Source: Enchytraeus crypticus (taxonomy: Eukaryota > Annelida > Clitellata > Enchytraeida > Enchytraeidae). From it: 64,000 bases of DNA. The notes beneath the pieces were generated by a model that did not search any database, was not told the DNA's origin, and saw nothing but the letters and a program-made list of their open reading frames with translations. The position numbers and the translations under genes are program-made. The stretch covers positions 92,501 to 156,500 of the forward strand of contig CAJHZI010000821.1 of NCBI GenBank assembly GCA_905160935.1, written 5' to 3'. Shown here in pieces: positions 3,895 through 64,000 of this stretch. Positions within the stretch are counted from its first letter, which is position 1; each line of letters begins with the position of its first letter.

Positions 3895-4302
3895 AGATTT
3901 AGTGTATACTATTCATCATCATCATCATCATCACCACCATCATCATTATTATCATCATCATCATTTTCGTTATCATCTTCATCATCACCACCATGCATCT
4001 TATTATCATCATCAACATTTTCATCCTCAACATCATCGTCATCATCATCTTCCCTTGAATCTCAGTTTAGCAAGAGTCGGGATACTAATAGACCTTTGCC
4101 ATTTCTCTCTGTGGGGTGATGAAAGTTTCTATTGGTTTTTGAAAATTTTCTATCAATTTCTGGAGCCATGGCGCTCTTCAACTGGATACCCTTTCTGATG
4201 TTGGTCTAGATCTTAGTGCGTTAGTCTCCTTATACGACACGTGTCATAAAGTCAACGGTTTGTCTATTCTTCAGCAACCCGGACACAACACGGGTACTCT
4301 CA
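3895..4302 (-). mobile_element. SINE-2 copy with (ATG)n tail
   Basis: Read on the minus strand, this copy starts at CGTGTTGTGTCCGGGTT, the same 5' point as the copies at 48412 and 48983. It passes through ACACGTGTCGTATAAGGAG and CATCAGAAAGGGTATCC, then reaches a 3' region with GTATCCCGACTCTTGCTAAA. It ends in a long ATG-type trinucleotide tail (3914-4045 on the plus strand reads TCA/CAT). The 3' region matches the end of the RTE-type LINE at 7795-8345. Confidence 0.7.
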
Positions 4303-7794: not shown

Positions 7795-8345
7795 CATCAA
7801 CATCCCTTAGATCCCAGTTTGACCAGGGTCGGGATACGAATAGGCTTTCTCCACTCCTCTCTGTCCTACACCATATCATCAGTCAATAACCTATTTTTCA
7901 TGTCATTCTTAATTACCGCATCCAACGTCAATTTTTGTCTACTACTCTCTAGCTTAATATCCAGTTTTTCCCTCCAAACTCTTTTCACTACATCCTCCTC
8001 TGCCTTTCTCACCATATGCCCATACCATCTCAATCTCGACTGAGCCAACCTATCCCCGATCCCCTCAACATTCAAATTCATCCTCACATATTCATTTTCC
8101 ATTCTGTCCTTCCTAGTTTTCCACACATTAGACGTAACATTCTCATTTCTGTCACATGCAAACTCTGCAAATGTTCCCTTTTTAATGCCCAACATTCCGA
8201 GCCATACATAATTACTGGCCTTACCACAGAACTATAAAATTTGCCTTTCAGTCTTGGTATTTTCCTATCACACAGCACACCACTAGCTGCCCTCCACTTT
8301 GCCAACCCAGCCTGAATCCTACTAGTAACCTAATTTTCAAACTTC
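7795..8345 (-). mobile_element. RTE-B LINE 3' end
   Basis: Minus-strand translation gives carboxy-terminal RTE/BovB-like blocks in several frames: KFYSSVVRPVIMYGSECWAL, EMRMLRLMCGK, RLRWYGHMVRKAEEDVVKRV, and near the end DREEW..PIRIPTLVKLGSK. The 3' terminus reads GTATCCCGACCCTGGTCAAA followed by a short GATGTTGATG tail. This LINE family (RTE-B) is distinct from RTE-A. Its terminal 90 bp is shared with SINE-2. The frame is interrupted and no endonuclease or polymerase core is present, so the copy is dead. Confidence 0.8.
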
Positions 8346-11425: not shown

Positions 11426-13486
11426 TTAAGCAATTCGTTCTTTCTTAATTTTCAAATCTCGACTGTCTTCACCGAGAATTGTCGCAATCTCGTTCTGCAT
11501 GAACGCCCACGGTATGACTGAACCGAGTAGGGGGCATTTCTTACCACTGGGACAGTAGATCTCTGCCCCCGGGCTGCCCCCTGCTTGACGCTTGATGCTC
11601 TCCTTCGAGCAGGGAAAACAGAACTTGTGATCAAGTGCTGATGGACACTGAACGAAGTGCGTGTCCTCCAGACGTTCTCCACACAGTGAACACCTCAACA
11701 GCTCAACGGGTGGAACTCCAGAAGAGAGGAGAGGGGATGCGGGGAGTTCACTCAGGGTGCTGCCCCGGCCAGGCGGTGAACCCTCGGAGCGGCCGGAGTC
11801 TCTGACCAAACGACTAGAGAGATTCCGAGGTACTGAGCTGGATCTATCCATGCCGTCCTCGATCCTGGAGCTCTCGGTGGCGTTGCCTGGCTGAGAGCTG
11901 CCGTTGCGGGTCTCAGAAGATCTTGGCGATGTGTTGACAGGATCTATGTTTGTAGGCGATATTGATGACAAGCGCTGAAGTCTATCCGTACCATCTGCTG
12001 TTGGTGATTTCATCAATTCCGTATCGGAACAGATGGCTCCAGAATTCGCCCCAGCTACTGAAATATTCAACAACAATCTTTTCGAAAACGCTTCCATCTC
12101 AGTATCAATACTGTGACGCTTTGCAAAAAGAGAATCAATTTCTGTGTCTGATGACTTACGCTTAAGAGGATTTGTACCTGGCAAGTAGCGGAATGGAGCC
12201 GGAGTGAATGGAAGATTCCCTCGAAATGGAAAAAGAAATCTGGGATTTGCGAACCCACTGACTGCTGCAGACATGCTGCGGGAGAGAAGGGCTGTGGCTC
12301 CGGCCAGAGCGTTGGTAACATCATCTGATATGGGAGTGGGGAGCAGTTCTTTGTTGATCGATGCCCTGAAGTACCGTGCTTGCTCAGGTAGAAGATCGCC
12401 AAGAATTTTCCAATCATCATTCCCAGGTCTCATTAAATATTCAATATATTTGAATCCAGAAGAAAGTCCTTTTCCGAGGTCCTTAGAGGTCTCGCTATAC
12501 ATTTGTCGCGCTACGCCAGATGCGCTGTTGTAGACACATCCAGATCCAACCGGATACTCGATGAATATCTTCAGCTCGTATTCATTTCCCGGAGGCTTGG
12601 TAGCTGCATCGAAAGCCAGCACCCTGCCGACTAGACTGTGATCTTTTTTGAATCTAATATCGAAAGGTGTAACAGATCCAAGAATAGATAGTGTGTCCCC
12701 GACCAGACCAGGTTTAGGACCACATTCCGAATCTTTACCCCTTCCATCGTTGCCTAAGTTAGACGAGTCCGAGTCCTCTTCTCCATGCCCATCACCATTA
12801 GTAGAGGAACCCTGGTCATCCACTCTCTGTCCATTGATCCGTGGAGAAGAGGTCGTGACCTTGTTTATTCGAGAGCTACCTGACATTTGTGGAGGTGCTA
12901 GGGAAGTATGGAGAGGAGGAATAGAATGAAAGGGAGTCAAACCCATTCTGAGTGGCAGAGCTAAGCCAAGAAGTCCATGTAAACCTGACGGATCGTCACC
13001 CCTCGCGCCATGCTCTACTGATAGCCGGCTGGCCAAGCCAAAGTCTAAGAGAGTAGCAGGAGCCGAGGGGCGGGGCATGGGTCCCGGGTGAGATCGTATG
13101 TCGTGCGTAGCTGGAACAGGACGTCCTAATCTGGGATCTGGAGGATCATTGGAACTTCGCGTACTTCCTAGAGCACCCTGAGCAGTGGATATCAATCCCT
13201 GACAGTTTGGTTTGGACTGAGATGACGCAGTGTATCCAGAGCGAGGTGTGACCTCCAGGAGTCCGTGGATTCTCTTCAGTTGTCTGGCTGCCTCCAGTAC
13301 CAACTCCACCCTGTCTGGCCCCTCGTAGTTGACACATCCTCTGCAGACAGGCTCCGTGTAGTCATGCAGCATAGCCCAAGGAGCCCTGGGCAGGTCACAC
13401 AGGGCACAGTGCTGCCTCTGACTCCTCTGCTGTTGTTGTTGTTGTTGTTGCGCAGAATGCTGCTGATGTTGACTGGGCATCGGCAT
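11426..13486 (-). CDS. IRF2BP-like: IRF2BP-family transcriptional co-repressor
   Basis: Encodes 686 residues in one uninterrupted exon. Residues 26-75 form the family's amino-terminal zinc finger, with cysteines at 27, 30, 48 and 51 in the context CALCDLPRAPWAML and VCRGCVNYEG. An ELVLEAARQLKRIHG helix follows. Residues 599 to about 672 form the carboxy-terminal RING-type finger, starting CSLCGERLEDTHFVQCPSA and ending CPLLGSVIPWAFMQNEI. The middle is low-complexity, rich in Ser, Pro and Gly, with a basic LKRKSS patch that may aid nuclear import. Vertebrate IRF2BP1, IRF2BP2 and IRF2BPL are nuclear co-regulators with this same two-finger plan and intron-poor coding regions; their lengths are about 580-800 residues. 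An in-frame TAA at 13499-13501 lies just upstream, so ATG 13486 is the first usable start. A glutamine run follows at residues 13-20. Confidence 0.95.
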   Translation of the reverse strand: MPMPSQHQQHSAQQQQQQQQRSQRQHCALCDLPRAPWAMLHDYTEPVCRGCVNYEGPDRVELVLEAARQLKRIHGLLEVTPRSGYTASSQSKPNCQGLISTAQGALGSTRSSNDPPDPRLGRPVPATHDIRSHPGPMPRPSAPATLLDFGLASRLSVEHGARGDDPSGLHGLLGLALPLRMGLTPFHSIPPLHTSLAPPQMSGSSRINKVTTSSPRINGQRVDDQGSSTNGDGHGEEDSDSSNLGNDGRGKDSECGPKPGLVGDTLSILGSVTPFDIRFKKDHSLVGRVLAFDAATKPPGNEYELKIFIEYPVGSGCVYNSASGVARQMYSETSKDLGKGLSSGFKYIEYLMRPGNDDWKILGDLLPEQARYFRASINKELLPTPISDDVTNALAGATALLSRSMSAAVSGFANPRFLFPFRGNLPFTPAPFRYLPGTNPLKRKSSDTEIDSLFAKRHSIDTEMEAFSKRLLLNISVAGANSGAICSDTELMKSPTADGTDRLQRLSSISPTNIDPVNTSPRSSETRNGSSQPGNATESSRIEDGMDRSSSVPRNLSSRLVRDSGRSEGSPPGRGSTLSELPASPLLSSGVPPVELLRCSLCGERLEDTHFVQCPSALDHKFCFPCSKESIKRQAGGSPGAEIYCPSGKKCPLLGSVIPWAFMQNEIATILGEDSRDLKIKKERIA

Positions 13487-13518
13487 ACCGATAACTGGTT
13501 AAGTGATGAACGATGGCA
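13487..13518 (-). other. 5' UTR piece with upstream splice acceptor
   Basis: On the minus strand a pyrimidine-rich stretch, ATTCTATTTTCAG, ends at 13519. This predicts an intron acceptor 32 bp before the start codon. The gene would then have at least one upstream noncoding exon, with its promoter further right. The acceptor is inferred from sequence only. Confidence 0.5.
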
Positions 13519-26659: not shown

Positions 26660-27360
26660 TAATTTCTCCGTACTCGAACGATAAAGTTCAAGCCGTCCTC
26701 AAGAGTTTGAAGCCTGGTTTAGCTGAAAACTCTTACGTAACATTTTATTCTATAGCGCGCGTTGAATGAACTACCCATCAGTTGACTACAATCGCATGTT
26801 AAAGTATCAAATAAGTTTATTTTTGTGGCAGTGATTTTGCAAATTCAATCAAATCCACTAAAAAGATGACTGTTGCAGATATACAGAAACGTGAATAGAC
26901 ATTGTTATTATTAAATTTTATATTCTTCCAATTATGTAAATTTATGTTGGAATATCTAACTAAAGTGGAAGAGAATTTATTCCCTCACATTAAATGAGAA
27001 ATTTTGCTATTTTTCATAGAATTGCTGCTTGTAAATATTATTTCTCTAAATTGGCAAATATTCCTCCTATAGAAGGACGGAAAGTTTTACTTTTTTACGA
27101 TTCAGCTGAAGGTGAATATATTTTTCACCCAGCCTATCTGCGAAAGTATCTTATCCGTAGGTGAGCTTTAACAGAAATATTTTCATCGCTGTATTAAATG
27201 TATACTCGTTTAGTTGGAGACAGTAGTTTATCTGTAACTTATTCCTAATGTACTGTAATATATTATTTTTTTAACTGTTTGAATATGGAATCTACGACAC
27301 CATCCCCCGCTGCCTTATGCCACAGCTGATATAAATTTTTCACTGATTCAAATCTCCCTC
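26660..27360. other. Intergenic, no recognised feature
   Basis: AT-rich sequence with no supported gene or repeat. Confidence 0.4.
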
Positions 27361-27361
27361 T

Positions 27362-28018
27362 GTCTTAGTGCACTTCCCACTGGCAGGTCCATGGTACATA
27401 ACGCCTCCACTCTTCTCTGTCTTCCGCCTTCCTCTTTATTTCCACATATGAATGGGTCTTTAAATCATCTAACATACCTAATCTCGGCCTGCCCCTACCT
27501 CTTATTCCTTCCATTCTACCTTCTATGACCTCTTTTAATAGACCTTCCCCCCTTAGAATGTGTCCTATCCATCTCTTCTTCCTATTTCTAAATACATTTA
27601 TCAACTGTCTATCTGTGCCAACTCTCTCCAGGAACTTCCTCATTTGTAACCTTTTGGGTCCAGCTAATCCTCTCCATTTTTCTCCAATCCACATTTCCAA
27701 TGCCTCTAGTTTCCTAATACCTTCCTTCCTTAAGGTCCATGTTTCACACACATACAATAGCGTGGTCCAAACCAAAGCTTTCACTATCTTTATCTTTGTG
27801 TCTTTCTTTAGACTTTTTGTTAATAGATCTTTTCTACTACCAAGGTCCGCTTTTTCTTGTGCAATCCTACTGCATATTTCCGTCTCACATTTCCCGTCAT
27901 CGGTTATAGTATGACCCAAATATTTGTAACTCCTTACCTGTTCCAAGGAGTTTCAAATATTTGGGCCATACTATAATCGATGACGGAAAATGTGAGACGG
28001 AAATATGCAGTAGGATTC
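27362..28018 (-). mobile_element. RTE-A copy with inverted 5' foldback
   Basis: Minus-strand frame 27365-27946 is the longest RTE-A frame here, 193 codons. It runs through KYLGHTITDDGKCETEI, LVWTTLLYVCETWTLRKE, RNRKKRWIGHILRGEG and RGRGRPRLGMLDDLKTHSYV to REEWRRYVPWTCQ. At its 5' end the same segment reappears inverted: arm 27863-27935 (minus) pairs with 27944-28018 (plus), with a loop of only about 8 bp. The 3' end is GTGCACTTCCCACTGGCAGG as seen on the plus strand. Confidence 0.88.
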
Positions 28019-40390: not shown

Positions 40391-40750
40391 CTTCCCTTCA
40401 GTGCACCGTCAATGGCAGGCTCAAGGTACATATTCATACTCAAAGTCTGCTTTCGCGCTTCATAAGAGCACTCCTTAGATCAACAAGTTAATCCCTTCAC
40501 AAAGTCTTTTCTTATCCAATCTTATGCAGCCTATAGCTTGGGAAAAGTACAGCTTCTGAGGTGGTTTCCCGTTGCCTTTCTCAAAAAGATGGATTAATTA
40601 CAATTTAATCATGGGGAAATATGTCATGGTGAGGTGGGTCCGCTCTTGCCATCCTCAGCTCCTGCCTTAGTCGCCTCTTACGTACACAAAGTAGATCGTT
40701 TGTGGTTGCTCTATTCTGCAGAGGTCCAATCACACCCGATCACAACTCGG
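40391..40750 (-). mobile_element. SINE-4 copy, full length
   Basis: On the minus strand it begins GAGTTGTGATCGGGTGTG, passes AGAATAGAGCAACC and TACGTAAGAGGCGACTAAGG, then AAAGGCAACGGGAAACCACC, and ends TGCCATTGACGGTGCACTGA. The head resembles SINE-2. The last 38 bp or so resemble the RTE-A 3' end. A 5'-truncated second copy is at 50155-50402. Confidence 0.65.
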
Positions 40751-40894
40751 GATGAATCTATAACAAGTTCTAATAACAAGACGTAGGCCTTACAATGAGC
40801 ATCAAATTTTTAATCGATGAAGTGCTTCCTTGGAACAGTTAAGTAGCTGTGAGTGTAATGTACCTTAATACTGCACTAAATTTTGTAGTACACC

Positions 40895-40904
<10 letters not shown>

Positions 40905-40937
<33 letters not shown>

Positions 40938-40980
40938 GAGAGAGAGAGAAAGAGAGAGAGATAGATAGATAGATAGATAC
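40905..40980. repeat. (GA)n and (GATA)n microsatellite
   Basis: GA dinucleotide tract ending in five GATA units. Confidence 0.95.
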
Positions 40981-41315
40981 AGCAATTATGAGCTAACTGC
41001 TAGGAATGCGCGAAACTGTTCTATGGCGTCATTAAACAATCATGGCACTTAATGACACAGACGTACAGTAATGTAAGTTAACTCGTTAATTAGTCATGAG
41101 CATCGCTTCAAGACGTGTAAACGTATAACTTTAGTATATAATACAAATGTTTTGTGCAATAAAGGGCTAGGCCAGTATTATATCTCAATATCAATCAATC
41201 AATAAGAATCTAAAGTCCGGTTCTTCGCCATATGGAAATGTCAGGGACGTCTCTTGCAAACTCTACTCAAACAGGCGCCAAAGTACCATAAGATGGCGAC
41301 TGGGTAAAGCTGGTA
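40981..41315. other. Intergenic, no recognised feature
   Basis: Nothing recognised. Confidence 0.4.
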
Positions 41316-41441
41316 AAGCTATTGTTAACGTCAGTTTCGTCACTAGAAAGCGATGCCAGTGACGGGCGAGCCCAGGATTTGAACCCCTCACATACTGATC
41401 CGCGGTCGAATAACTCACCGACATTGCCATAGGCTCCAGCA
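41316..41441 (-). mobile_element. SINE-1 copy
   Basis: Minus-oriented, near complete: TGTTAACGTCAGTTTCGTC, CGATGCCAGTGACGGGCG, B-box complement GGATTTGAACCCC, CTGATCCGCGGTCGAATAA and CGACATTGCCATAGGCTCC. It lies just beyond the 3' side of the next LINE fragment. Confidence 0.85.
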
Positions 41442-41524
41442 AATTGCGATATCGAGTACACAATGAGTCAATGAGTACACAGAGACCACAAGAGAAAGCG
41501 AGATCAAAACAGTGCAAATCTTAG

Positions 41525-42570
41525 ATCCAAGGCAAGCGGGTCAAAATCTAGACCTCAGGTGAAAAGAGATGGGTTTTTAGCTTGCCATGGAAAGTACCAA
41601 TACAATTGCAAGATCGAAGGTCTTGTGGCAGAGATTTCCTTTTTGTCGGAACAGAAGTCATGAAAGAACGTCTGCCCATGCTAGATTTATTGTTTGGTAC
41701 AGTGAGAAGATCTTAACTAGAGGAGTGAAGACTATGAGAGGGTTGATAGATTGATAAAAGGTCAGATAGATTATGATGATTTACCATAATTTAAACATCT
41801 GAAAGCAATGGAGGCTATCTTGAATTTTATTCCTTCGGAGGCTAGAAGCCCGTATAGTTTCTTAAGAAGAGAAGAGGTGTGGGATTTTAATATTTTTACA
41901 TTATAGACGACTCAAGAAAGAGCATTTTGCACGTGTTGGAGACGAATTGGAGAAGTTTTCTGGAGAACGTTCAACAAGGAGTTACAATATTCAAGTTTAG
42001 ATTGGACAAGCACATTAGCTACTACTATGGCAGAATTGATATCAATTGGTATAGAATTTCTAAATAGTGTATACCTGTAGGAGTAACGTCATGAAGTTTT
42101 AAATGACAAATCCTCAGGTGAATTTGACGTTATTGACGGATATGAAAAAAAGAGCGACAGACTGATGAAATATGTGTTTTAAAGTTTAGACTTGAATCGA
42201 AAATTATATCAAGGCTACGTGCAAACTTGAGGATAATAAAGAGATATTTCTTAATGTTATGGTTGAGTTAGTTACTTTATTACGCTGCTGTGGGGTACCG
42301 ATACGAAGGTTTTTGAAGTTTTTGAAGGATTGACAACAAGCCTATTGGCGCAAAACCAGGAGTGAACTAGATCTAGGGTAGATGTAATCTTGGACAGAGC
42401 AACAAAAGAATCGGGATTAGAGAACGCGATGTAAATCTGGGTATCAATCCGTATCATCAGCGTAAAAGTGAAATATCAGCGTTGAATCAGTTATCAAGTG
42501 ACTTAAGAGGGTGGTATATAATGTGAAAAGTAGGAACCAAGCACAGAACCCTGAGGGACTCCACAAAGTA
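41525..42570 (-). mobile_element. CR1/L2-like LINE, second copy
   Basis: Minus-strand frames give, in order, FHFYADD with an intact polymerase box near 42470, then QIYIAFSNPDSF, WFCANRLVVNPSKT, EYCNSLLNVLQKTSP, a GLLASEGIKFKIASIAF-like HWLP region, and KLKTHLF near 41560. The order and motifs match the copy at 24700-26655. Frame breaks occur throughout, and a SINE-3 piece interrupts it at 42070-42130. Confidence 0.8.
42070..42130 (+). mobile_element. SINE-3 fragment
   Basis: GTAGGAGTAACGTCATGAAG, TTTTAAATGACAAATCC and CAGGTGAATTTGACG match the SINE-3 copy at 21365-21485, but the B box is missing. Confidence 0.6.
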
Positions 42571-42609
42571 GAGTGCAGGTTGGTGACAAAGTGTTTCAAT
42601 AACCTATAA

Positions 42610-42715
42610 GTTATAAAATGTTTGTAAGATGTCCGACTGTGGACCTGTAGTGCAGGATTCAAATTCAGTGTTCTTCGATCCCTTCCCTTACTGCATTCAT
42701 TCGAGACAAGAAAAG
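42610..42715 (+). mobile_element. Degraded SINE-1-like fragment
   Basis: GTAAGATGTCCGACTGTGGA, GCAGGATTCAAATTCAG and CTTACTGCATTCATTCGAG follow the SINE-1 order with heavy divergence. Confidence 0.35.
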
Positions 42716-42837
42716 TTGTGCAGCAAATGTTTAAGTTGGTTTTAGCCTTATACGAAGAGTTATATGGTAATATATTTGTATAGAGTTGTCTTGCACTTAA
42801 TCGAATTAAGCATGTCACGGTTTAGAAATAGTTACAA

Positions 42838-43775
42838 TGATGGGAGTTGACTAGAAAATTTTAATAGTACTGTTGAATTTGCACATGAATCAGAAAGCCA
42901 TAGTCAAAATTCATCAAGAGTTCTCTGGGGAGGGTGAATAAGGACGCGGGAAAGACAAGGATGCTGCTTTTCATCACTACTATTCAACCTCCCTGCCGAG
43001 ATCGTAATGATTGAGGCGATGGAGAGTATTTCGTAAGATATAATTGCTGGAAGTAATAAGCTGAGAGATTTTGTTTTGGCTTTTAATATAATAGACTGGA
43101 TAATGATGTTAAACATCTTGAGAAGGATTGGAGTTGACTGGAGAGATAGAAGAGTGATTTTAAATTTGTGCATGAATCAGAAAACAATAGTCAAAATCCA
43201 GCAATAGTTCTCTGAGGAGGATGAAATAGGACGGGGATTAATCTCTATGTGAAGGCGGTAATTGTTGAGGCGATGGAAGATTTTGAGGAAGAAATAACTA
43301 TTGGAGGTACATTTGCTGAAAGATGTGAGGTTTGCAGATGATCAAGGTATGCTTGCTAGTAGTGAAATAGGATTGCAAAGGGTTATGGTTGGTCTGAATG
43401 GCACAGCACTGAGATTTAGCATGAAGATTTATATAAAGAAGACAAAGGTTAAAAGGGTGTTTAGGAATGACAGGGATGTAAATATTACATTGAATAACAC
43501 GCAATTAGAACAGGTAAAAAGCTTTATGTATTAGAGCACACCATCACGGGTTATGGGAAGTGTGAAACAGAACTAAAATGTACGATTACACTAGCGAAAG
43601 AGAGAAAAGAACAAAATATATGATAATCCACAAAGACAAAGATTGTGAAAACATTGCTATGATCGATAAGTATAAACCGTTGTGAAACGTGGGCAGTAAG
43701 GAAAGAGGATATTTGGAAACTAGAGATAATGGAAATGTGGTTATGGCGAAAAATGGAAACCCTTGGGGGTTTAGG
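42838..43775 (+). mobile_element. Diverged RTE-A copy with internal duplication
   Basis: Two overlapping reverse-transcriptase segments lie in tandem. A segment with LNLHMNQKAIVKI at 42838-43075 repeats as ILNLCMNQKTIVKI at 43125-43200. After that the element continues in order: VRFADDQGMLASSEIGLQRV (polymerase box FADD near 43331), IKKTKVKRVFRND, QLEQVKSF, then RCETWAVRKEDIW and MWLWRKME. It is more diverged than the other RTE-A copies and has many stops. Confidence 0.75.
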
Positions 43776-44925
43776 GTTTTGATTAGAGATTTTGGCTCAA
43801 ATTTAATCTATATAAAAATTCAAATTTCAAATTCTAAAATTTCAAATCAAGTTACAAATTTCAAATTGAGGATTAGGGGATTTTTATGGCTCAATTAGAG
43901 GTCAAATTTACAGTAAAAATGTGACAATTACAATATACAATAGCAGCAGAGAGGCTGGGCCATTAAGGTTTGGCTCTTTTAGATCGCGCCTGCTATAGTT
44001 TATAAATATGCCGTTGGCACTAAAGCATTGATAGAGACCGTTGAGCCAGGTGCTTTCGACTGAACAACATTGGTGTTTCTACCTACGACTACGGGCCTAC
44101 TGAGCAAGTGAAATATTGGCAAGTTGTTCGACACCGGCTCAGCTGGTGCAGAATTAAACTTCAGTGATCTCAACATCATTTGCATGCAGTAGATCAGAGA
44201 CTGACGTTAAACTTGGTTTTCTGCGGTTTTATCAGTGACAAGACTTCGTTTCACTCTACAGCTCACTGTAGTTTAATGCTTCATAAATTACTAAAAATTA
44301 AGTAATTTTTAGAATTAGTAACTTAACTAAAGTGATTAATTTAGTAATGTAATTAATCAATTGTTTTACATTGCACAGTAATGAAATGTTATATTAGGCC
44401 AATAAATTTAGAACCTCATTTCAATGACGGTGACCTTAATTATCTGCCCATTAACTGACTCGTGTAGTAATCGAGATAGGAATTGCGTCACCACCGGTTA
44501 CATGAGCGAGTTATTGCCTTCAACTGATCTGAGTTTACCTGCTCTCGTTATATCGCTCATTTAGTAGGCTATCTGACTTCAGGTCCTAGGTATGCATGTT
44601 CGGCATATAGTTTCAAAACTTGACTCCACTCACTCTCTCTAAAACACTTTCTGCCATCCAGTAGATCTGTTGGTATCATTAAAAGTCTGTCTTCAATAAA
44701 TATTATTTATAAATCTGCCTAGAAAATATATGGCTTCAAAATTGTATCCTAACTGCCTTTATTAGATATTCCTTAGCCACCGCTTATGACACGCACTGTA
44801 AACGATTGGCTCAATAAGGTTTAGTAGGAACTATTTGCTTAAATCTCGTGACACTTAGGTCATACAAGTAGAAGTTATAGTACAGTAGGAGATACTATGA
44901 CCTAACGTGGTAGAAAGGGCTAAGA
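43776..44925. other. Intergenic, no recognised gene
   Basis: A simple-sequence patch of AAATTTCAAATT-like motifs lies at 43810-43870. Nothing else was recognised. Confidence 0.4.
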
Positions 44926-45072
44926 GCTAATGAGGGCTTAGAGCTGATGAGACAGGAGGGCTAAGAGTTGATGAGACAAGAGGGCTAAGAGTTGATGAGA
45001 CAGGAGGGCTAAGAGTTGATGAGACAGGAGGGCTAAGAGCTGTTGAGGCAGGAGGGCTAAGAGCTGCTGGCG
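44926..45072 (+). repeat. 24-bp tandem repeat
   Basis: About six copies of a 24-bp unit built on GGAGGGCTAAGAGTTGATGA. The last copies are diverged. Confidence 0.9.
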
Positions 45073-45199
45073 CAGGTGCTGCGTAGAATGCGTGTCACGC
45101 TTGTATTAGATGGATATGATTAGAGAGAGAAAGAAGTTGAGAGGGTGAGGCACGCAACAGCCCATTAGTTCTACCATCAATCAATATAATACAAGTCGC

Positions 45200-45440
45200 T
45201 CTCTAACACGCGAGTCCCACACACTGCGCCACCCTTTCCGCTGCAGAAATTATTTCCACTTCCTCTGATACGGTCCACTCCGTTGCGGCGCCACTTAATT
45301 GACGAATCGTATTCAGCTTTATCAATTGTCGTGCTATAAGGTCATCAAAGTTGTTAGGTGTCAATGGATGCTGCCAAAAATGATTAAATACTAATTACCA
45401 TTAGCACGTGACTGCGTTCAATGTCCGGTACCTTGAGCGT
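45200..45440. promoter_or_regulatory. Candidate noncoding regulatory element
   Basis: Compact, non-repetitive, compositionally balanced block. It has several homeodomain-type sites (CACTTAATTGACG, ACTAATTACCATTAG) and an E-box-like GCACGTGAC. It lies in the gene-free interval downstream of OTX. No conservation data are available, so this is a candidate only. Confidence 0.2.
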
Positions 45441-46640
45441 CATTAAGATATTGATCCAGGCTGGAGTCTTATAATATCGCAATTGATAATTTATTGCAAA
45501 ACTTTACCATATATATGAAAAGACTCATTATGTTTAATAATTTTATTTTTAATTACGATTAATATTGGGTCACTTACACTTTTCAACTTTTAATCTTAGC
45601 CCTAACGATAATACGGGCATCCTAGCTGGATATTCAGTTGATTTGAGCATTTCTCCTGTAGCTTTTATCCTTAATATTAGTATTAATATTACGTATTAGT
45701 ATCGATATTGAGATTTTATGTTTAAAACACATTTTAAGTTGGACAAAACAAAAACGTAGTTCCATCTCATATGATTTGCATTTTCTGTGTAAGTCGTTTC
45801 AAGCATTTTCTCATAAACTTTTTTGGAGTGCATTTTATACAAAAATACAGAATCAAAAATTGCTCCCGAAATTTATGTAGCAATCCTAGAGTGCTATAAA
45901 GAGCGTTATCGTTCATTGGAGTGTTTCATCATCGGCGACTATCACAGCTTAATAGATAAAAATAATTCGCAATAGTAGAAAATATAAACAAACATTTATT
46001 CTCAAATGACGATGACAAAGTGACAACAATGACAATGAAAACGTGAGGCACATCTTAATCCAAAATTTCGAAGGTTATCACATAATAAAATAATTATATT
46101 TTAAATGAATGCTCAAAGACGCCATCAAATAAGCATTTAGTTTTGACATATGGACATTTAGATTTGCTAATAGCATTCATGTTGCTGGATGGAATGTGAT
46201 AAAATAAATCAATTAATGTAGAAATTCAGGAGAGACTTGTGCGATATTGAGAAGGAATACTATTCGCACCGTCACGCGACACCTTGCATGCAACATCATA
46301 TAAGATAAAGTATAGCCCAAAGAACTCAAAACATCAACCTATTCAACTAATGATAATGACATAGAGCCAATTATTGGATTGATCTTAATGTATAATGTAC
46401 ATGTACAGAGCTATTTTGCTAGAGTTAATTACAAAGGTGTCTTACGCACCTTCAGTAACAACTTCGGTGTCCCGGAATAAGTGTATATGAAATTCTCTCT
46501 ATAGTATTTTAAGTATAGTGGAGTAGTGGAATGGAGAGAAGGTTTGAGTGAATATATAATATTATGACTACTTGATGAAGTGAAAACATTTAACAATTAT
46601 AACAATTTTATTCTGTATATACAACATTTTATGCACTGTA
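45441..46640. other. Intergenic, no recognised feature
   Basis: AT-rich; nothing recognised. Confidence 0.4.
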
Positions 46641-46654
46641 TTACATATTAGCAA

Positions 46655-46845
46655 TTAGATTATGACACTATAGTATCGTCACTTAGATTATGACTCATAA
46701 TATCAGGCTTAGGTTATAAAACTATATCAACACTTAGATTATGACACTATATCAGTAGTTATTATGACTCTATATCAGCACTTAGATTATGATATTCTAT
46801 CAGCACTGCACTTATATTATGACAATATATCAGCACTTAGATACG
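46655..46845 (+). repeat. Degenerate 25-30 bp tandem repeat
   Basis: Seven or so units share CACTTAGATTATGACACTAT followed by ATCAG. Spacing varies from about 24 to 32 bp. Confidence 0.8.
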
Positions 46846-48411
46846 GTCTAATGCCAGAGTTATTGTACCATTCTGAGTTCAGTAAATTAGATATTAATAA
46901 TAGTATTCTATGCCCACTAACGAAGAGAGCAAACTCGTACAGTATGGACGCAAAGAGTTAGTTATCTAAGAAAGTAATGAGAAAAACTGTAACCCAATTT
47001 GTTAGAAATGCTTATAGTAAATTTGTAGTAAATGCTAAATATATTACGATTTCGTAAATAGCCTACATACTTGTAAGTTTACATATAGGTTTATATGATA
47101 AGATAACCGTCTAGGTCCATATAATATATTTGTTATTGACCATGAAAAGAGATTGTGAGTAGAAATAGTAAGCGATGGGCCCATCATTTGGCAGAAAATC
47201 TAGATTGAGAATTTTTATATCTATCTCTATGTATCAATGTTTAAACGCCGCTATTTATTTGTCCACTGCGACAGAAGTTATTTGAAATGTTTCCCGGACA
47301 ACAGCTCATCGCCGAAGCGATAAAAGCCACGGGGAGTGCTGGTGGGGGTGGGGCTGATTCAAAAGTGCAAGCACTGCCGAGGAAATGCCTCACGGTCGGG
47401 TGGGTTGCCCCTGGTTTCTGTCGCCTTTATTCTGGCGGCGTCGTAGTGAAGAATCGAGCAGAAGACCCGGTGTCCTAGCAACTATATTTAATCTCTGACA
47501 AATATCTCCTGCCATCCTTATTATTATTCCTTTCCTCGTCAAACTATTTGTCTATAAAATTTTTAAAGACTATCTCGGGTAACAGAGTTACAATGCTCAA
47601 GCATATAAATTGTTAAAATTAATTGTTTTATATGAAATGTTGATAGAAAATATAAACAATATGTTTATGATAAATAACATTTGTATATCAAAGAACTGCC
47701 AAGGCTATACAGTAGATTTTCATAATTAACACTCTAGTGGATTTCATCTGTTATACGACATAAACCTACTAATATATTATCAAACACGATGAACTGTCAA
47801 ATATGGGATTGAAGGATGCGATTGTAGCTCAACAACGTAAGCAATACATTCACTTGAAACTTTAGTATTATTTGCTAACAATTAATATAATTAATCAGTC
47901 AACTAATCAATCAAGTAGCCAGTTATTCGCGAAATTAATGACGCACTTACAAACTCAAAGTAGTTATTTTATCCTGTGACACGAAAGATTGTCTAATAAT
48001 GTTAAATTAATATTAACCGCACTCTGTATTACTTGCTATTGATTTTAAATTCCTTTTTTCAATGCATAGACTACGTTTCTCGTTACATACATGTACACTC
48101 ATAATATCACAGATGACTAGTAATATTGTTAAGAAAACAAAGCATGTTTCCAGTATAATTGCTTTGTGAAATCATTTGACAGTCGTAAATCGCTTTTCAC
48201 TTATTGATATTTCTGTCATCCCTCCCTGTGCTTAACTCTGAGACTAATTCATCTTCCTCCTGTGTCACATCTTTTTGGGCTCCATATTATAATTATCAGC
48301 ACAATTATCAATGGTTATTCTGAAAAACCTTCCCCAGAACTTTTGAAGCTTAAATATTTGCAAGTTCAATTATTTTTTAATTTTCGTTCAATGTTACATT
48401 ACATCTTCGTG
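46846..48411. other. Intergenic, GC-richer patch at 47270-47480
   Basis: Unique-looking DNA. The 47270-47480 patch is GC-richer than its surroundings and carries a 63-codon plus frame without a recognisable domain. Confidence 0.35.
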
Positions 48412-48695
48412 TTGTGTCCGGGTTATTTGAAGAATTGACAAACCGGTGACTGCACGTGTCGTAGAAGGCGACTAAAGCACTAAGATCCATGCCAACGTCA
48501 GAAAGGGCATTCCGTTGGTGAGCGCCTAGGCTCCAGAATTTGCTACAAAAATTTTAACGAATGGATAACTCTCAAATAGGGGATTGGCTGGTGGTGTGGT
48601 TTAGGACAAAGAGAATTTGAGGCAGTCAACTTGTATCCCGACCCAGGTTAAACTGGGATTCAAGGGAGGATTATGATGATGATGATGATGTTACA
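48412..48695 (+). mobile_element. SINE-2 copy, full length
   Basis: Starts TCGTGTTGTGTCCGGGTT, then GAAGAATTGACAAACC, CGTGTCGTAGAAGGCGACTA, CGTCAGAAAGGGCATTCC, and a 3' region GTATCCCGACCCAGGTTAAA, ending in (GAT)n. The last 90 bp match the RTE-B LINE end at 7795-7885. No clear Pol III boxes were found in its head, so the origin of the head is open. Confidence 0.75.
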
Positions 48696-48982
48696 TTATA
48701 TTTCAACTCTTCAAGTTTCTAGTATAAGCACTCTTTAACGTCCGTGCTTCACACTCGTTTGAGCATGTTGGAGCACAAAACCTAACAGAGGTTTTCCATC
48801 GTGTCTCTTTTGAGACTTTAGTCAGAGGATTTTTTTAATACCGATGACATTATAATCTGTGGTGGGTCTTCTTTTGCGATGATGTCAAATCTCATAGCAT
48901 TTGTTTTGAGGTGATGTAAATATTTGCAGTTTTTTCTCCTTTTACGTTTTTTAATATATTCTGATATTAATTTTAATAAATC

Positions 48983-49262
48983 AGTGTTGTGTCTGGGTTA
49001 CTGAAGACTACATGTAGACCAACAGTGGACTGTACGTGTCGTAAAAGGCTACAAGGAGCTAACATCCAAACTAACGTCAGAGAGGGCATTCGATTGTTGA
49101 TATCCTATAGGTTCTAGAAATTGTTACAAAATTGTGTAAACCGAATGGAAAATATTGTTTCAGACCCTGATTAAACTGAGATTCAATGGAAGATGATGAC
49201 GACGATGACGATGATAACGATGACGATGATGATGATGATAATGATTGTGATGGCGATGATGA
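48983..49262 (+). mobile_element. SINE-2 copy, full length
   Basis: Starts at the same 5' point (CAGTGTTGTGTCTGGGTT) as the copy 570 bp upstream and that at 4302. It contains TACGTGTCGTAAAAGGC and CGTCAGAGAGGGCATTCG, and ends with a long GATGAC/GATGAT tail at 49192-49262. Confidence 0.75.
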
Positions 49263-50154: not shown

Positions 50155-50402
50155 TTCTTTAGTGCACTGCCAAGTGGCAGGTTCAAGGTACATATTTATA
50201 CTCAAAGTCTGCCTTGTCGCTCCACAGGAGCACTCACCAGATCAACAAGTTAATCCCTTCACATAGTCTATGCCTTATCCATACCTTATGTAGCCTATAG
50301 CTTGAGAAAAATATGGCTCCTGATGTGGTTTCCCGTTGCCTTCCTCAGTTAGGTGGATTAATTATCATTTAATCCTGGGGGAAATATTTCATGGTGAGGT
50401 GT
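50155..50402 (-). mobile_element. SINE-4 copy, 5' truncated
   Basis: Matches 40391-40650 throughout: TTTAGTGCACTGCCAAGTGG, GATCAACAAGTTAATCCC, GGTTTCCCGTTGCCTTCC and TTTCATGGTGAGGTG. It stops before the head. Confidence 0.75.
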
Positions 50403-50429
50403 TAAGAGCACAACACGGGGTTAAGGTAT

Positions 50430-57290: not shown

Positions 57291-57905
57291 CGCAAAAAAT
57301 GCAAGAACGTGTACGAAAAAAACTGAAAAGAAGTTACCTAGAACTGCAAGGAAGCACATTATCGTTTTTTATTTTTATTTTTATGTCACAGTATATGACT
57401 TGCTATACTTTTGAGCAACGCATAGGCCTATTGACTTGGCATATTTAACTATTATTTGTAACAATTTTGCTCTGTAGATATCCATAAAATGTTTGAAAGT
57501 CATTTCTTGCTACAGTCTGCCTTAAAGCAATCCAGTAAATACATATTTCGAAAGAAAACAGGTTCAAAAATAGTTAATTTGCATAGTAAATCGAATTAAC
57601 TGAGTTAAATAAAGTTAAATTCTACAATGATAATGATAAAAGAAGCTCAAAGCAAATTAATGGATCAATTTAGAAAATGGAAAACTTTATATTTAATCCT
57701 TAGCAATCAATCAATGAACAGTGCGATTTATTAAGTTAACAGGAGACAACGATGATTTCAAGATTGCAGTTGCTCCATCTCATGAACAATTAAAATTCCT
57801 TCAGAGATAATATCTGCACTGGACCTTCAAAATAGTAATTGAAGCGTTTCACACAACTATTATTTTAAATATTTTCGAAGATCGATTTCAGGCTATTTAT
57901 AGTCT
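57291..57905. other. Intergenic, no recognised feature
   Basis: AT-rich; nothing recognised. Confidence 0.4.
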
Positions 57906-57911
57906 TAATTA

Positions 57912-58558
57912 GATTAATATTAGTATTAGCATTAGTATTAGTATTGGTATTTGTATTGGTATTTGTATTGGTATTTGTATTGGTATTTGTATTGGTATTT
58001 GTATTGGTATGGGTATTGGTGTTAGTGTTAGTGTTAGTGTTAGTGTTAGTGTTAGTGTTAGTGTTAGTGTTAGTGTTAGTGTTAGTGCTAGTGTTAGTGC
58101 TAGTGTTAGTATTAGTATTAGTATTAGTATTAGTATTAGTATTAGTATTAGTATTAGTATTAGTATTAGTATTAGTATTAGTATTAGTATTAGTATTAGT
58201 ATTAGTATTAGTATTAGTATTAGTATTAGTCTTAGTATTAGTATTAGTATTAGTATTAGTATTAGTATTAGTATTAGTATTAGTATTAGTATTAGTATTA
58301 GTATTAGTATTAGTTAGTATTAGTATTAGTATTAGTATTAGTATTAGTATTAGTATTAGTATTAGTATTAGTATTAGTATTAGTATTAGTATTAGTATTA
58401 GTATTAGTATTAGTATTAGTATTAGTATTAGTATTAGTATCAGTATCAGTATCAGTATCAGTATCAGTATCAGCATCAGCATCAGCATCAGCATCAGCAT
58501 CAGTATCAGTATTAGTATTAGTATTAGTATTAGTATTAGTATTAGAATTAGTATTAGC
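57912..58558 (+). repeat. Mosaic hexamer array (ATTAGT family)
   Basis: About 650 bp of hexamers in homogeneous blocks: ATTGGT/ATTTGT alternation (57946-58014), GTTAGT (58018-58110), ATTAGT (58111-58438), ATCAGT then CAGCAT-type units (58439-58500), and ATTAGT again. One phase slip is seen near 58313. It is stop-free in four of six frames, so frames of over 200 codons across it are artefacts. Confidence 0.95.
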
Positions 58559-58869
58559 AAAACTTTTGTCTTGTTTCTGTTTCAATAAGTGCTGCCATCG
58601 CGTGATTACAACTTTTCTCCTGTTTTGTTACTGTTTTAAAAGTGCTGCCATCATGCGATTAAAAGTGCAGCAGAGCGCTGATACTACTGTTAAAGGCTCG
58701 AAAAAGTTGTTACTTGTCACCTTGTTGAATTCTCTACTGCTCGGTAATACAAAATCCTGCGCTTGCCCGATAGGTAGGCAGGCAAGACATTAAATAAATT
58801 TTACTAATTTGCACAGTGCTACCATTTAAATTTAATAGTTCTGAATTAACATTTACGCTGAGGCAAATA

Positions 58870-59728
58870 TTAAACTGCTGTTTAACATTTACGCTGAGGC
58901 AATGATGGAGGAAGCCATGGAAGACTTGGAAGAAAGAATAAAAGTAGGAGGGAATTTGTTACAAGATGTACGATTTGCAGATGACCAAGGAATGGTAGCG
59001 GGAAGCGAGATTGGATTGCAGAAGATAATGGATAGGCTGAAAGATACGGCCCTAAGATATAGCATGAAGCTTAATATAAAAAAGACCAAGGTTATGAAAG
59101 TGTCCAATAATAAAGGTGAAGTTAATATCACAATAAATGGTACGAAATTGGAACAGGTAAGGAGTTTCAAATATTTGGGTCATACTATAACCGATGACGG
59201 GAAATGTAAGACGGAAATATGCAGTAGGATTGCAAAAGCGGACCTTGGTAGTAGAAAGGAACTATTAACCAAGAGTCTAAAGAAAGACACAATGATAAAG
59301 ATAGTGAAAACTTTGGTTTGGACCACGCTATTGTATGGATGTGAAACATGGACCTTAAGGAAGGAGATATTAGGAAACTGGAGGCATTGGAAATGTGGAT
59401 TTGAAGAAGAATGGAGAGGATTAGCTGGACTCAAAAGGTTACAAATGAGGAAGTCCTGGAGAGAGTTGGCACAGATAGACAGTTGATAAATGTATTAAGA
59501 AATAGGAAGAAGAGATGGATAGGACACATTCTAAGGGGGGAGGTCTATTAAAAGAGGTCATAGAAGGTAGAATGGAAGGAAAAAGAGGCAGGGGCAGGCC
59601 GAGATTAGGTATGTTAGATGATTTAAAGACCCACTCTTATGTGGAAATGAAGAGGAAGGCGGAAGACAGAGAAGAGTGGAGGCGTTATGTACCATGGACC
59701 TGCCAGTAGGCAGTGCACTAAGAGAGTT
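58870..59728 (+). mobile_element. RTE-A LINE, best-preserved 3' half
   Basis: Opens EEAMEDLEERIKVGGNLLQDV, then the polymerase box FADD (58974-58985) in VRFADDQGMVAGSEIGLQ, IKKTKVMKVSNNKGEV, FKYLGHTITDDGK, LVWTTLLYGCETWTLRKE. A one-base shift near 59370 moves the frame to KRLQMRKSW, and another near 59535 leads to GRMEGKRGRGRPRLGMLDDL and REEWRRYVPWTCQ. The 3' end is CCTGCCAGTAGGCAGTGCAC followed by TAAGAGAG. Blocks after the FADD box are those of the RTE clade thumb and carboxy terminus. The endonuclease and early fingers are absent. This copy gives the best reference for the family in this window. Confidence 0.92.
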
Positions 59729-62225: not shown

Positions 62226-63068
62226 TCAGAGAAGCTGAAACTTTGTCCACTCCTTGCTGTCGATATAGTCCGCTGCCGCTATGGGCGTTGAACCTCTGCC
62301 ACTAATGTACGGTGCGCCGTCGATGCTCGAATAAGACATCATGTGACCAGTCATGTGATTGGACATGGGTCCAACGGGTCCAGAGGTCATGTTCATACCA
62401 CCGAGCACCGAGCTACCGTACGGAGAGTTTGCCGAATTGACCGGCGTCCTGCTTCCTCCCGTCAACTGCTGGATAGGAGACATGTAATCAACCATCCCGT
62501 TACCATAGTAGCTAGATGAAGAATAGCCTCCCTGTCCTTGTCCCAAATAGCCGCTGTTCATAGTGGGGGATTGATTGGGCGCCATGTTGGCGACGTTGTG
62601 TGTAGGGTAGGCGTGGTTAACTCGTTGTGATGGGTAGTGGGAGGCGCTACCTGTCATGATATCATTCATCGACGGATGCATGGACGCAGGACTCCACATG
62701 GATGGGGAGGTCTCGTATGAGGATCGGCCAGAGAGGGATGATAAGGTTGGACTCTTGATGTAACTCAAACTGTCTGATATCCCTGGTACCCCTCTTGATG
62801 ACGAAGAGCCGATTCCAGCCCTACCACCCCCGCTCAGGGTTATCGAGCTTCCGCTCTCGTCACTTGTCTCAGCCGGTGATATCTTGCCGCACTTCCCCTT
62901 CGCTCCAGGCGTTGGAGTCAAAGTCCCGGTGGAACTGACGGAGGCAGGACGCTTGCACTGCTGGAGATGAGAGCTACTGCCTCCGCTGCTGCTGCTCGAG
63001 TTCTTTATGACTTGCTCTGCTGCCTTCTGCTGCTGCCGGCACTTAGCTCTTCGGTTCTTAAACCACAC
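62226..63068 (-). CDS. otx: OTX/orthodenticle homeobox, last exon
   Basis: Terminal coding exon of 280 codons plus a TGA stop at 62226-62228. It begins in phase 0 at homeodomain residue 47 with VWFKNRRAKCRQQQ. The lysine at position 50 and CRQQQ distinguish OTX from other lysine-50 classes such as Pitx and Goosecoid. OTX genes commonly have an intron exactly here. The acceptor TTATGTTCAG ends at 63069. Downstream are a Ser-rich linker (residues 24-33), a SMWSPASM block (residues 123-130) like the conserved WSPAS motif, SYYGNGMVDYMSPIQ (186-200), and a carboxy terminus DYIDSKEWTKFQLL corresponding to the family's WKFQVL tail. OTX proteins bind TAATCC-type sites and pattern the anterior nervous system and endomesoderm. 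The first 46 homeodomain residues and the start lie beyond the window. Confidence 0.94.
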   Translation of the reverse strand: MWFKNRRAKCRQQQKAAEQVIKNSSSSSGGSSSHLQQCKRPASVSSTGTLTPTPGAKGKCGKISPAETSDESGSSITLSGGGRAGIGSSSSRGVPGISDSLSYIKSPTLSSLSGRSSYETSPSMWSPASMHPSMNDIMTGSASHYPSQRVNHAYPTHNVANMAPNQSPTMNSGYLGQGQGGYSSSSYYGNGMVDYMSPIQQLTGGSRTPVNSANSPYGSSVLGGMNMTSGPVGPMSNHMTGHMMSYSSIDGAPYISGRGSTPIAAADYIDSKEWTKFQLL

Positions 63069-64000
63069 CTGAACATAATCCATAAACAGCTGATAAGTCA
63101 AACAGAACAAGACTGAACCAAGGAATTGTCTAGATGTTACCGCTCACCACTATATCAGCTCTTTAAAGCCAAAATATTTGATGTTACTATGATAACGAAA
63201 CGTTCAAAGGATTACAAAATAATAACAAACAGAAAGGGTAAAAATGTTACAAATTATGTTGAAGCTTCTACGAAGTCTACAGGGAATGTTGGCTTCAGAG
63301 TCGTCCAATGAGCTCAAGTCAGTCGAAGAGCTTTTCTTCTCGCTATTTGGTTCAATAATGTCTAACTTTCTCTTGAAATCTTTGCAAAAATCAGGATGAT
63401 ACATTCTAAAATATAAAAAATTATATTTTATTGAATCTGTATTTTTAGTACAACTTAATACTCTAAGAAGTTAACAGGAATGACAGCAACGTCCTTTTTT
63501 TCATTTTCGTGAATTAGGTTAGGGACATGTCATAACATTATTAACTTATGCATCTATGTAAAAGGATTCATTCAGAGTAAATTTAAGTTATATTCAAAAT
63601 CAGTTCTGGAGCGAAATGTGTTGAAGGTGGAAGTTAACCGCACTAATTTGGCAAAAATTTCATAACTGAACGATTACTAGAGCCATTCAAATATAGATCT
63701 CATGTCGCTAATGGAAATATTGCATAACTCCCGACATCATTCGAGCAAATTAGAGTTGTGAACTGAACACGCGAGAGGCGCAGATCAAGTAAATCGACAA
63801 ACGTGCTAATAAAGTGCTATTGTAATCTAGACGTAACTGACTTTAGACAGGGTGGTTCAGAATAAATGAACTATTTTGAAGGCTAATAACTTACAATTTT
63901 TATCCGAAACGTCTCATATGATACATTAAATTAAATACAATTCCCCTTTCTAACTTTTTACTTGATAAATATCTACGAGATATTCCTACAAATGTTTGAG
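63069..64000 (-). other. OTX intron
   Basis: Runs from the homeodomain acceptor to the window edge. It should be the intron that splits the homeobox between residues 46 and 47. No upstream homeobox exon is visible. A minus open stretch at 63204-63404 follows an acceptor-like TTTTATATTTTAG but has no recognised domain. Confidence 0.6.

Follow-up and report, generated by a model that had tools for sequence, protein, structure and literature searches.

Two families of short repeats in the genome of Enchytraeus crypticus, labelled as short interspersed elements (SINEs) SINE-2 and SINE-4, are very probably short non-coding derivatives of RTE-type long interspersed elements (LINEs), internally deleted and keeping both the 5' and the 3' end of a LINE. 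Both occur in the window, the whole 64,000-nucleotide (nt) stretch analysed here, which is C718:92501-156500 of a 524-Mb genome; genome-wide searches were made across that genome. The window contains three copies of SINE-2, one of SINE-4, a further SINE-4 copy with its head deleted, and parts of two LINEs, here called RTE-A and RTE-B. An earlier note on this DNA had described one SINE head with tails from two LINEs and had explained it by tail exchange. The first part of that description stands. The second is very unlikely, since in SINE-2 the head together with the body is the 5' end of RTE-B. What had been read as a SINE head is the 5' terminus of that LINE, rather than a SINE promoter that recruits new tails.

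The SINE-2 consensus was built from 28 copies (8 loci and 20 of the other 32 rows of the match list), which represent at most 27 insertions since L006 and L007 have common flanks, and the SINE-4 consensus from 30 copies out of 40 match rows. These are the genome copies that match those in the window best, and no random sample; for that reason their low median divergence (3.8% for SINE-2 and 3.4% for SINE-4) is a biased figure. The two consensuses open with the same 12 bases, CCCCGTGTTGTG, and have a common 5' head of 75-92 nt (80-90 bp had been claimed). Local alignment of the heads (the first 85 nt of SINE-2 and the first 95 nt of SINE-4) gives a score of 46, with a maximum of 33 among dinucleotide shuffles and none of 2000 shuffles as good. 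After the head the elements diverge, as had been claimed: their bodies score 15, a value equalled by 1892 of 2000 shuffles, which is no match. The assignment of the tails also held, and both proved slightly longer than thought. The SINE-2 tail matches the RTE-B copy in the window over 102 nt at 84% (7896-7795; about 90 bp had been claimed). For the SINE-4 tail, the window contains seven matching RTE-A 3' ends, with 83-89% identity across 42-45 nt (about 38 bp had been claimed).

The relationship of SINE-2 to RTE-B is apparent from a complete copy of the LINE (L101), which is 3.18 kb long, ends in a GAT tail and is bounded on both sides by TTGCACTTATGCAT. Its 5' end matches SINE-2 positions 3-172 at 152 of 171 positions (89%) and its 3' end matches positions 170-276 at 92 of 107 (86%). 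The junction of these two stretches in SINE-2 falls at AAA, a triplet present at both sites in the LINE. A search with the first 500 bases of L101 listed 40 matches, and 29 of them, counting L101 itself, span the head and run into sequence found only in RTE-B. For this count a match had to start no more than 14 bases from the query start and reach at least base 295, the part in common with SINE-2 ending near base 173; the remaining 11 begin farther in. All eight RTE-B 5' ends that we fetched begin with CCCC in the same column as the first base of SINE-2, cover the full 172 nt of SINE-2 head and body, and then continue into RTE-B-only sequence. The eight fetched ends and the 29 continuous matches therefore identify SINE-2 as RTE-B with its middle deleted. 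In SINE-2, the 172-nt RTE-B 5' end is joined to about 117 nt of the RTE-B 3' end, and both ends are colinear with one LINE. At one other locus (L100), only a few bases separate an RTE-B 3' end from SINE-2/RTE-B sequence that comes after it on the same strand and starts at position 66.

The best preserved SINE-2 copy in the window lies at 48405-48690 on the plus strand, 5.8% from the consensus (gaps left out), and is flanked by the repeat pair ATGTTACATTACAT / ATGTTACATTATAT. Copy bounds in the window were set by comparison with the genome consensuses. The head of this copy (consensus 1-76; 48405-48480) matches the SINE-4 head and all eight fetched RTE-B 5' ends. Head and body together (consensus 1-172; 48405-48576) make up the part equal to the RTE-B 5' end, 89% identical to L101, and 48574-48690, by alignment, corresponds to the RTE-B 3' end and includes the GAT repeat tail. 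Two more diverged copies lie at about 48980-49262 on the plus strand (14.7% over consensus 5-170) and at about 3916-4295 on the minus strand (17.4%, with a long GAT tail and an approximate 3' bound). Among the consensus copies, target-site duplications 10 nt or more in length and with no more than one mismatch flank 26 of the 28 SINE-2 copies and 19 of the 30 SINE-4 copies; the control, mismatched flank pairs, gave 17-18%. Several of these duplications are low-complexity sequence. Most copies have them, and SINE-2 and SINE-4 therefore look like products of retroposition.

RTE-A and RTE-B are distant relatives, with reverse transcriptases 27% identical over 338 amino acids (aa). Pfam finds RVT_1 in both and Exo_endo_phos in RTE-A, and one RTE-B N-terminal piece (151 aa) gave no Pfam match. 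The RTE label of the two LINEs rests on the naming in the earlier note and on the domain layout. At C575:1428290-1428709 and C342:714582-714995, open frames of 2077 and 2046 aa run over the RTE-A endonuclease and far exceed the length of the element.

SINE-4 has a different construction. In the shuffle tests (1000 shuffles each), in which L105 alone represents RTE-A, SINE-4 positions 93-175 match the RTE-A 5' untranslated region (29.0, shuffle maximum 16.5) and do not match RTE-B (7.0, 881 shuffles as good). The head, positions 1-92, shows the opposite pattern: it matches the RTE-B head (28.5, shuffle maximum 16.0) and fails to match the RTE-A 5' end (7.5, 723 shuffles as good). The 5' ends of RTE-B and RTE-A do not match each other either (6.0, 976 shuffles as good). 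A probe made of SINE-4 1-163 and its RTE-A continuation locates the edge; in 40 of the 40 places listed, the RTE-A match begins at position 90-95. SINE-4 is thus RTE-A-like at 93-163 and again at its tail, so the tail was not moved onto a foreign body as tail exchange had supposed. The misplaced part is the 92-nt head, and because it is RTE-B-like and unlike the RTE-A 5' end, the exchange or loss lay at the 5' end. Judged by its sequence, SINE-4 is an RTE-A-type derivative that carries an RTE-B-type head. The earlier note had itself named, as a refuting alternative, full-length RTE elements that have an internal deletion and a 5' region in common; this describes SINE-2, and fits SINE-4 in part, at 93-163 and the tail, its head being unlike that of RTE-A.

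In the window, SINE-4 occupies 40393-40752 on the minus strand, 8.8% from the consensus and with no clear target-site duplication. Its RTE-B-like head (consensus 1-92) is at 40661-40752, the stretch resembling the RTE-A 5' untranslated region by local alignment and by the genome probe (consensus 93-163) is at 40590-40660, and the tail resembling the RTE-A 3' end is at approximately 40393-40433. Within the consensus, positions 93-150 recur at about 170-235 (24.5, shuffle maximum 13.5). An intact 5' end was found in nine of 28 RTE-A stretches (5 of 16 loci and 4 of 12 stretches), all of the L105 type and all reading GGGTAAACAGGATAG or a close variant. A search by start-codon motif for a LINE parent of SINE-4 gave 70 places, two of them exact (C617:1346308-1346327 and C625:556009-556028), which may be LINEs or mutated SINE-4 copies. 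At three loci (L013, L019 and L035), partial head-like sequence lies immediately 5' of SINE-4; its orientation is inverted in L035 and, it appears, in L019 as well. L124 has a partial tandem duplication at an RTE-A 5' end. The second SINE-4 copy in the window, at 50156-50420 on the minus strand, aligns to the consensus without about 100 nt of the head, its first 15 nt jumping to about consensus position 117. This copy does not define a head-deleted subfamily, as its junction occurs at one place genome-wide with up to 3 mismatches allowed.

Several observations weigh against reading both families as LINE derivatives with LINE ends. L101 is the single RTE-B copy read over its full length, and target-site duplications are weaker for SINE-4 than for SINE-2. 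When SINE-4 1-175 is aligned freely with RTE-A, the best alignment extends into the head as far as position 59, for a gain of only 0.5 in score. No LINE with a SINE-4 head is among the 40 probe matches listed; the main RTE-A subfamily fills that list, and rarer LINEs may lie outside it. SINE-4 170-235 is only weakly RTE-A-like (19.0, shuffle maximum 21, 2 of 1000 as good), and a source for SINE-4 236-305 was looked for and not found. Lastly, a fold of the three head consensuses (-14.7 kcal/mol) is unsupported by 66 individual heads (-0.6 kcal/mol, 3 pairs).

A third, older set of insertions, SINE-5, also joins a similar head to a SINE-4-like body. It comprises four insertions with different flanks (L014, L038, L089 and L095), chosen because BLAST flagged them. 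Each of the four heads was compared with the RTE-B head and with the SINE-4 head, and none of 1000 shuffles did as well in any comparison, the narrowest being L014 against the SINE-4 head (17.0, shuffle maximum 16.5). As four independent copies, they are 71-77% identical in pairs, so the pairing of this head with a SINE-4-like body is older than one would judge from the young SINE-4 copies. Further fragments of the SINE-5 body (L029, L035, L080 and L093) have no recognisable head. We rejected the idea that SINE-5 is a family of many near copies: L089 and L140-L147 (9 copies) share flanks and are thus one insertion carried inside another repeat, which leaves four SINE-5 insertions in all.

The head does not derive from a small RNA of the kind found in typical SINEs. 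The earlier note had proposed a comparison with small RNAs; ARAGORN finds no tRNA in the window or in six loci, and the 22 Rfam matches in the window at E<=1 are all to microRNA models, with none on SINE-2 or SINE-4. These results reject a small-RNA origin. The head gives only partial matches to the consensuses of the boxes for RNA polymerase III (Pol III), of which the earlier note had seen no obvious example. SINE-2 and SINE-4 therefore share with SINEs a 3' end held in common with a LINE and have no tRNA-, 5S- or 7SL-related head with a Pol III promoter. The lack of Pol III boxes is what we would expect of a LINE 5' untranslated region.

A ribozyme of the hepatitis delta virus (HDV) type at the head likewise found no support. 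Rfam at E<=10 gave nine matches on L101, L105 and L113, and none was to a ribozyme. A home-made scan by rules for the HDV fold gave 1 match in SINE-2, 18 in RTE-A L105, and none in SINE-4, L101 or L113; shuffled sequences gave matches in 3-7 of 50, near the rate of the actual matches. The RTE-A 5' end GGGTAAACAGG (from 932 in both L105 and L113) can be threaded in an HDV-like way in L105 and not in L113, and shuffles of each match in 3 of 50. A 16-base motif of the head gave 18 stretches in viral contigs, none with the head in its surroundings, and we took these as chance. Four 13-mers of the head occur in none of the paper texts searched, and of 76 papers with a 9-mer of it the 20 listed are unrelated; a literature search, with most subscription papers outside it, did not find RTE derivatives with a shared 5' head.

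How might such elements persist? The proteins of RTE-type LINEs recognise the 3' end of their template in target-primed reverse transcription. We postulate that the head acts as a 5' module through which a copy can be expressed starting at its first base, by an internal promoter and perhaps 5' processing, and that each 3' end is recognised by the reverse transcriptase of its own LINE, that of RTE-B for SINE-2 and that of RTE-A for SINE-4. Both ends would then be retained in short elements because the head gives expression and the 3' end gives recognition. A promoter that fires at its own first base would explain both the constant 5' ends and the absent Pol III boxes. The RTE-B-type head of SINE-4 might either be ancestral to the A lineage and have since been replaced in present RTE-A, or have passed between lineages by template switching.

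The first of these two histories has, in our estimate, close to an even chance. The head would be an old 5' end of the RTE-A/RTE-B lineage, kept by SINE-5, SINE-4 and RTE-B and replaced in present RTE-A. SINE-5, at its greater age, already has the head on a SINE-4-like body, and the nine intact RTE-A 5' ends are uniform in type. However, the heads still align between lineages with reverse transcriptases just 27% identical, so the head would have to be under strong constraint, and an RTE-A-type LINE with the head was not found. We regard the second history, in which an RTE-A-type element gained an RTE-B-type head when the enzyme switched templates between RNAs during reverse transcription, as possible but somewhat short of even. 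The sharp start of RTE-A homology in all 40 probe matches listed and the patchwork of SINE-4, with its internal recurrence, fit such a switch, and template switching has been invoked in the available part of a report on an insect SINE chimera, HaSE3 (PMC3272025). The intermediate was not found, and any transfer must be old, since SINE-5 already has head and body together. A jump is favoured by the abrupt boundary near SINE-4 position 92 and by the patchwork, and age by the presence of the head in SINE-5. More broadly, a 5' cassette of roughly 80-90 nt may move between RTE lineages as distant as these independently of the coding region, so that front ends (promoters) and tails would be separable modules and non-coding derivatives could combine a front end from one lineage with reverse transcription by the enzyme of another; we offer this generalization with considerable reserve.

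The remaining alternatives fare worse. RTE-B LINEs could have taken their 5' end from SINE-2; sequence comparison does not fix the direction, and the SINE-2, SINE-4 and SINE-5 consensuses have GTTGTG where RTE-B copies mostly have GTTGGG. This is improbable, as the 3' end of SINE-2 is RTE-B sequence too, and a single internal deletion joined at AAA accounts for the whole arrangement. Still more improbable is the earlier proposal that a single SINE, head and body, had acquired tails from RTE-A and RTE-B: it accounts for the same head with different tails, but the SINE-2 head and body belong to the RTE-B 5' end and SINE-4 is RTE-A-like both after its head and at its tail. Chance similarity of the heads, also raised in the earlier note, is next to impossible given the shuffle result, the identical first 12 bases and the recurrence of the head in RTE-B and SINE-5.

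RTE LINEs are reportedly the origin of many SINEs, by the title of a 1998 study by Malik and Eickbush. The nearest parallel we know to the head of SINE-2 and SINE-4 is Pr77 of trypanosomatids, described in the available portions of two papers (PMC4035085, PMC4748587) as a 77-nt 5' segment common to the L1Tc/ingi LINEs and the truncated NARTc/RIME, and reported there as a Pol II (RNA polymerase II) promoter and an HDV-like ribozyme. In both cases a 5' terminal segment is common to LINEs and to short, internally deleted versions of them. The short family SIDER2 carries Pr77 twice, which loosely resembles the internal repeat of SINE-4 as far as those portions describe it. Unlike Pr77, the head here occurs with RTE-type LINEs, in a genome with IRF-2BP1/2 genes, and spans lineages with distant reverse transcriptases. 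Promoter and ribozyme activities, in those same portions, are features of Pr77, whereas the head is known from sequence alone; a Pr77-like promoter role for it is suggested by analogy.

Two insect systems offer further comparisons. The lepidopteran RTE elements, in the available part of their description (PMC2887409), are about 3.2 kb long, encode an endonuclease and a reverse transcriptase, have a 5' untranslated region of a few hundred nt and a very short 3' one with a simple repeat, and produce target-site duplications. The LINEs here probably resemble them in those features; short derivatives that keep the 5' end are not described in that part. The Helicoverpa SINEs HaSE1, HaSE2 and HaSE3, in the part available (PMC3272025), are alike in one part and different in another, and HaSE1 has an RTE tail. 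Unlike SINE-2 and SINE-4, they are described there as having Pol III boxes in heads related to tRNA or 5S.

LINEs that have lost their middle and retained a 5' hallmark are already known; what deserves attention here, we think, is that distant RTE lineages have such a hallmark in common. What looked like tail exchange in SINEs becomes a case in which both ends of short elements are LINE-derived, and the question shifts to the 5' end, that is, to why LINE lineages with reverse transcriptases 27% identical have a common front end of 80-90 nt. Should the head prove to be a portable promoter, animals would have their own equivalent of the trypanosomatid Pr77, and the continued transcription of non-coding LINE derivatives that lack Pol III boxes would be accounted for. 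Repeat annotation that names SINEs by size and tail alone would misread the origin of such elements.

Other features of the window include the LINE fragments themselves. By alignment, RTE-B is present as a 3' part at 7795-8231 on the minus strand, and RTE-A as a 3' part including the 3' end at 58845-59726 on the plus strand and as another 3' part at 27358-27952 on the minus strand. At 42822-43765 on the plus strand lies a third reverse transcriptase of RTE-like type, which, compared in pieces, is 43-51% identical to that of RTE-A. A long tandem repeat at 57865-58790 has frames on both strands that read LVLVLV or SISISI. On the minus strand, 11426-13498 encodes IRF-2BP1/2 domains above the cutoff, and 62226-63143 a partial homeodomain slightly under it (20.6 vs 22.9 bits), in a frame that looks Otx-like.

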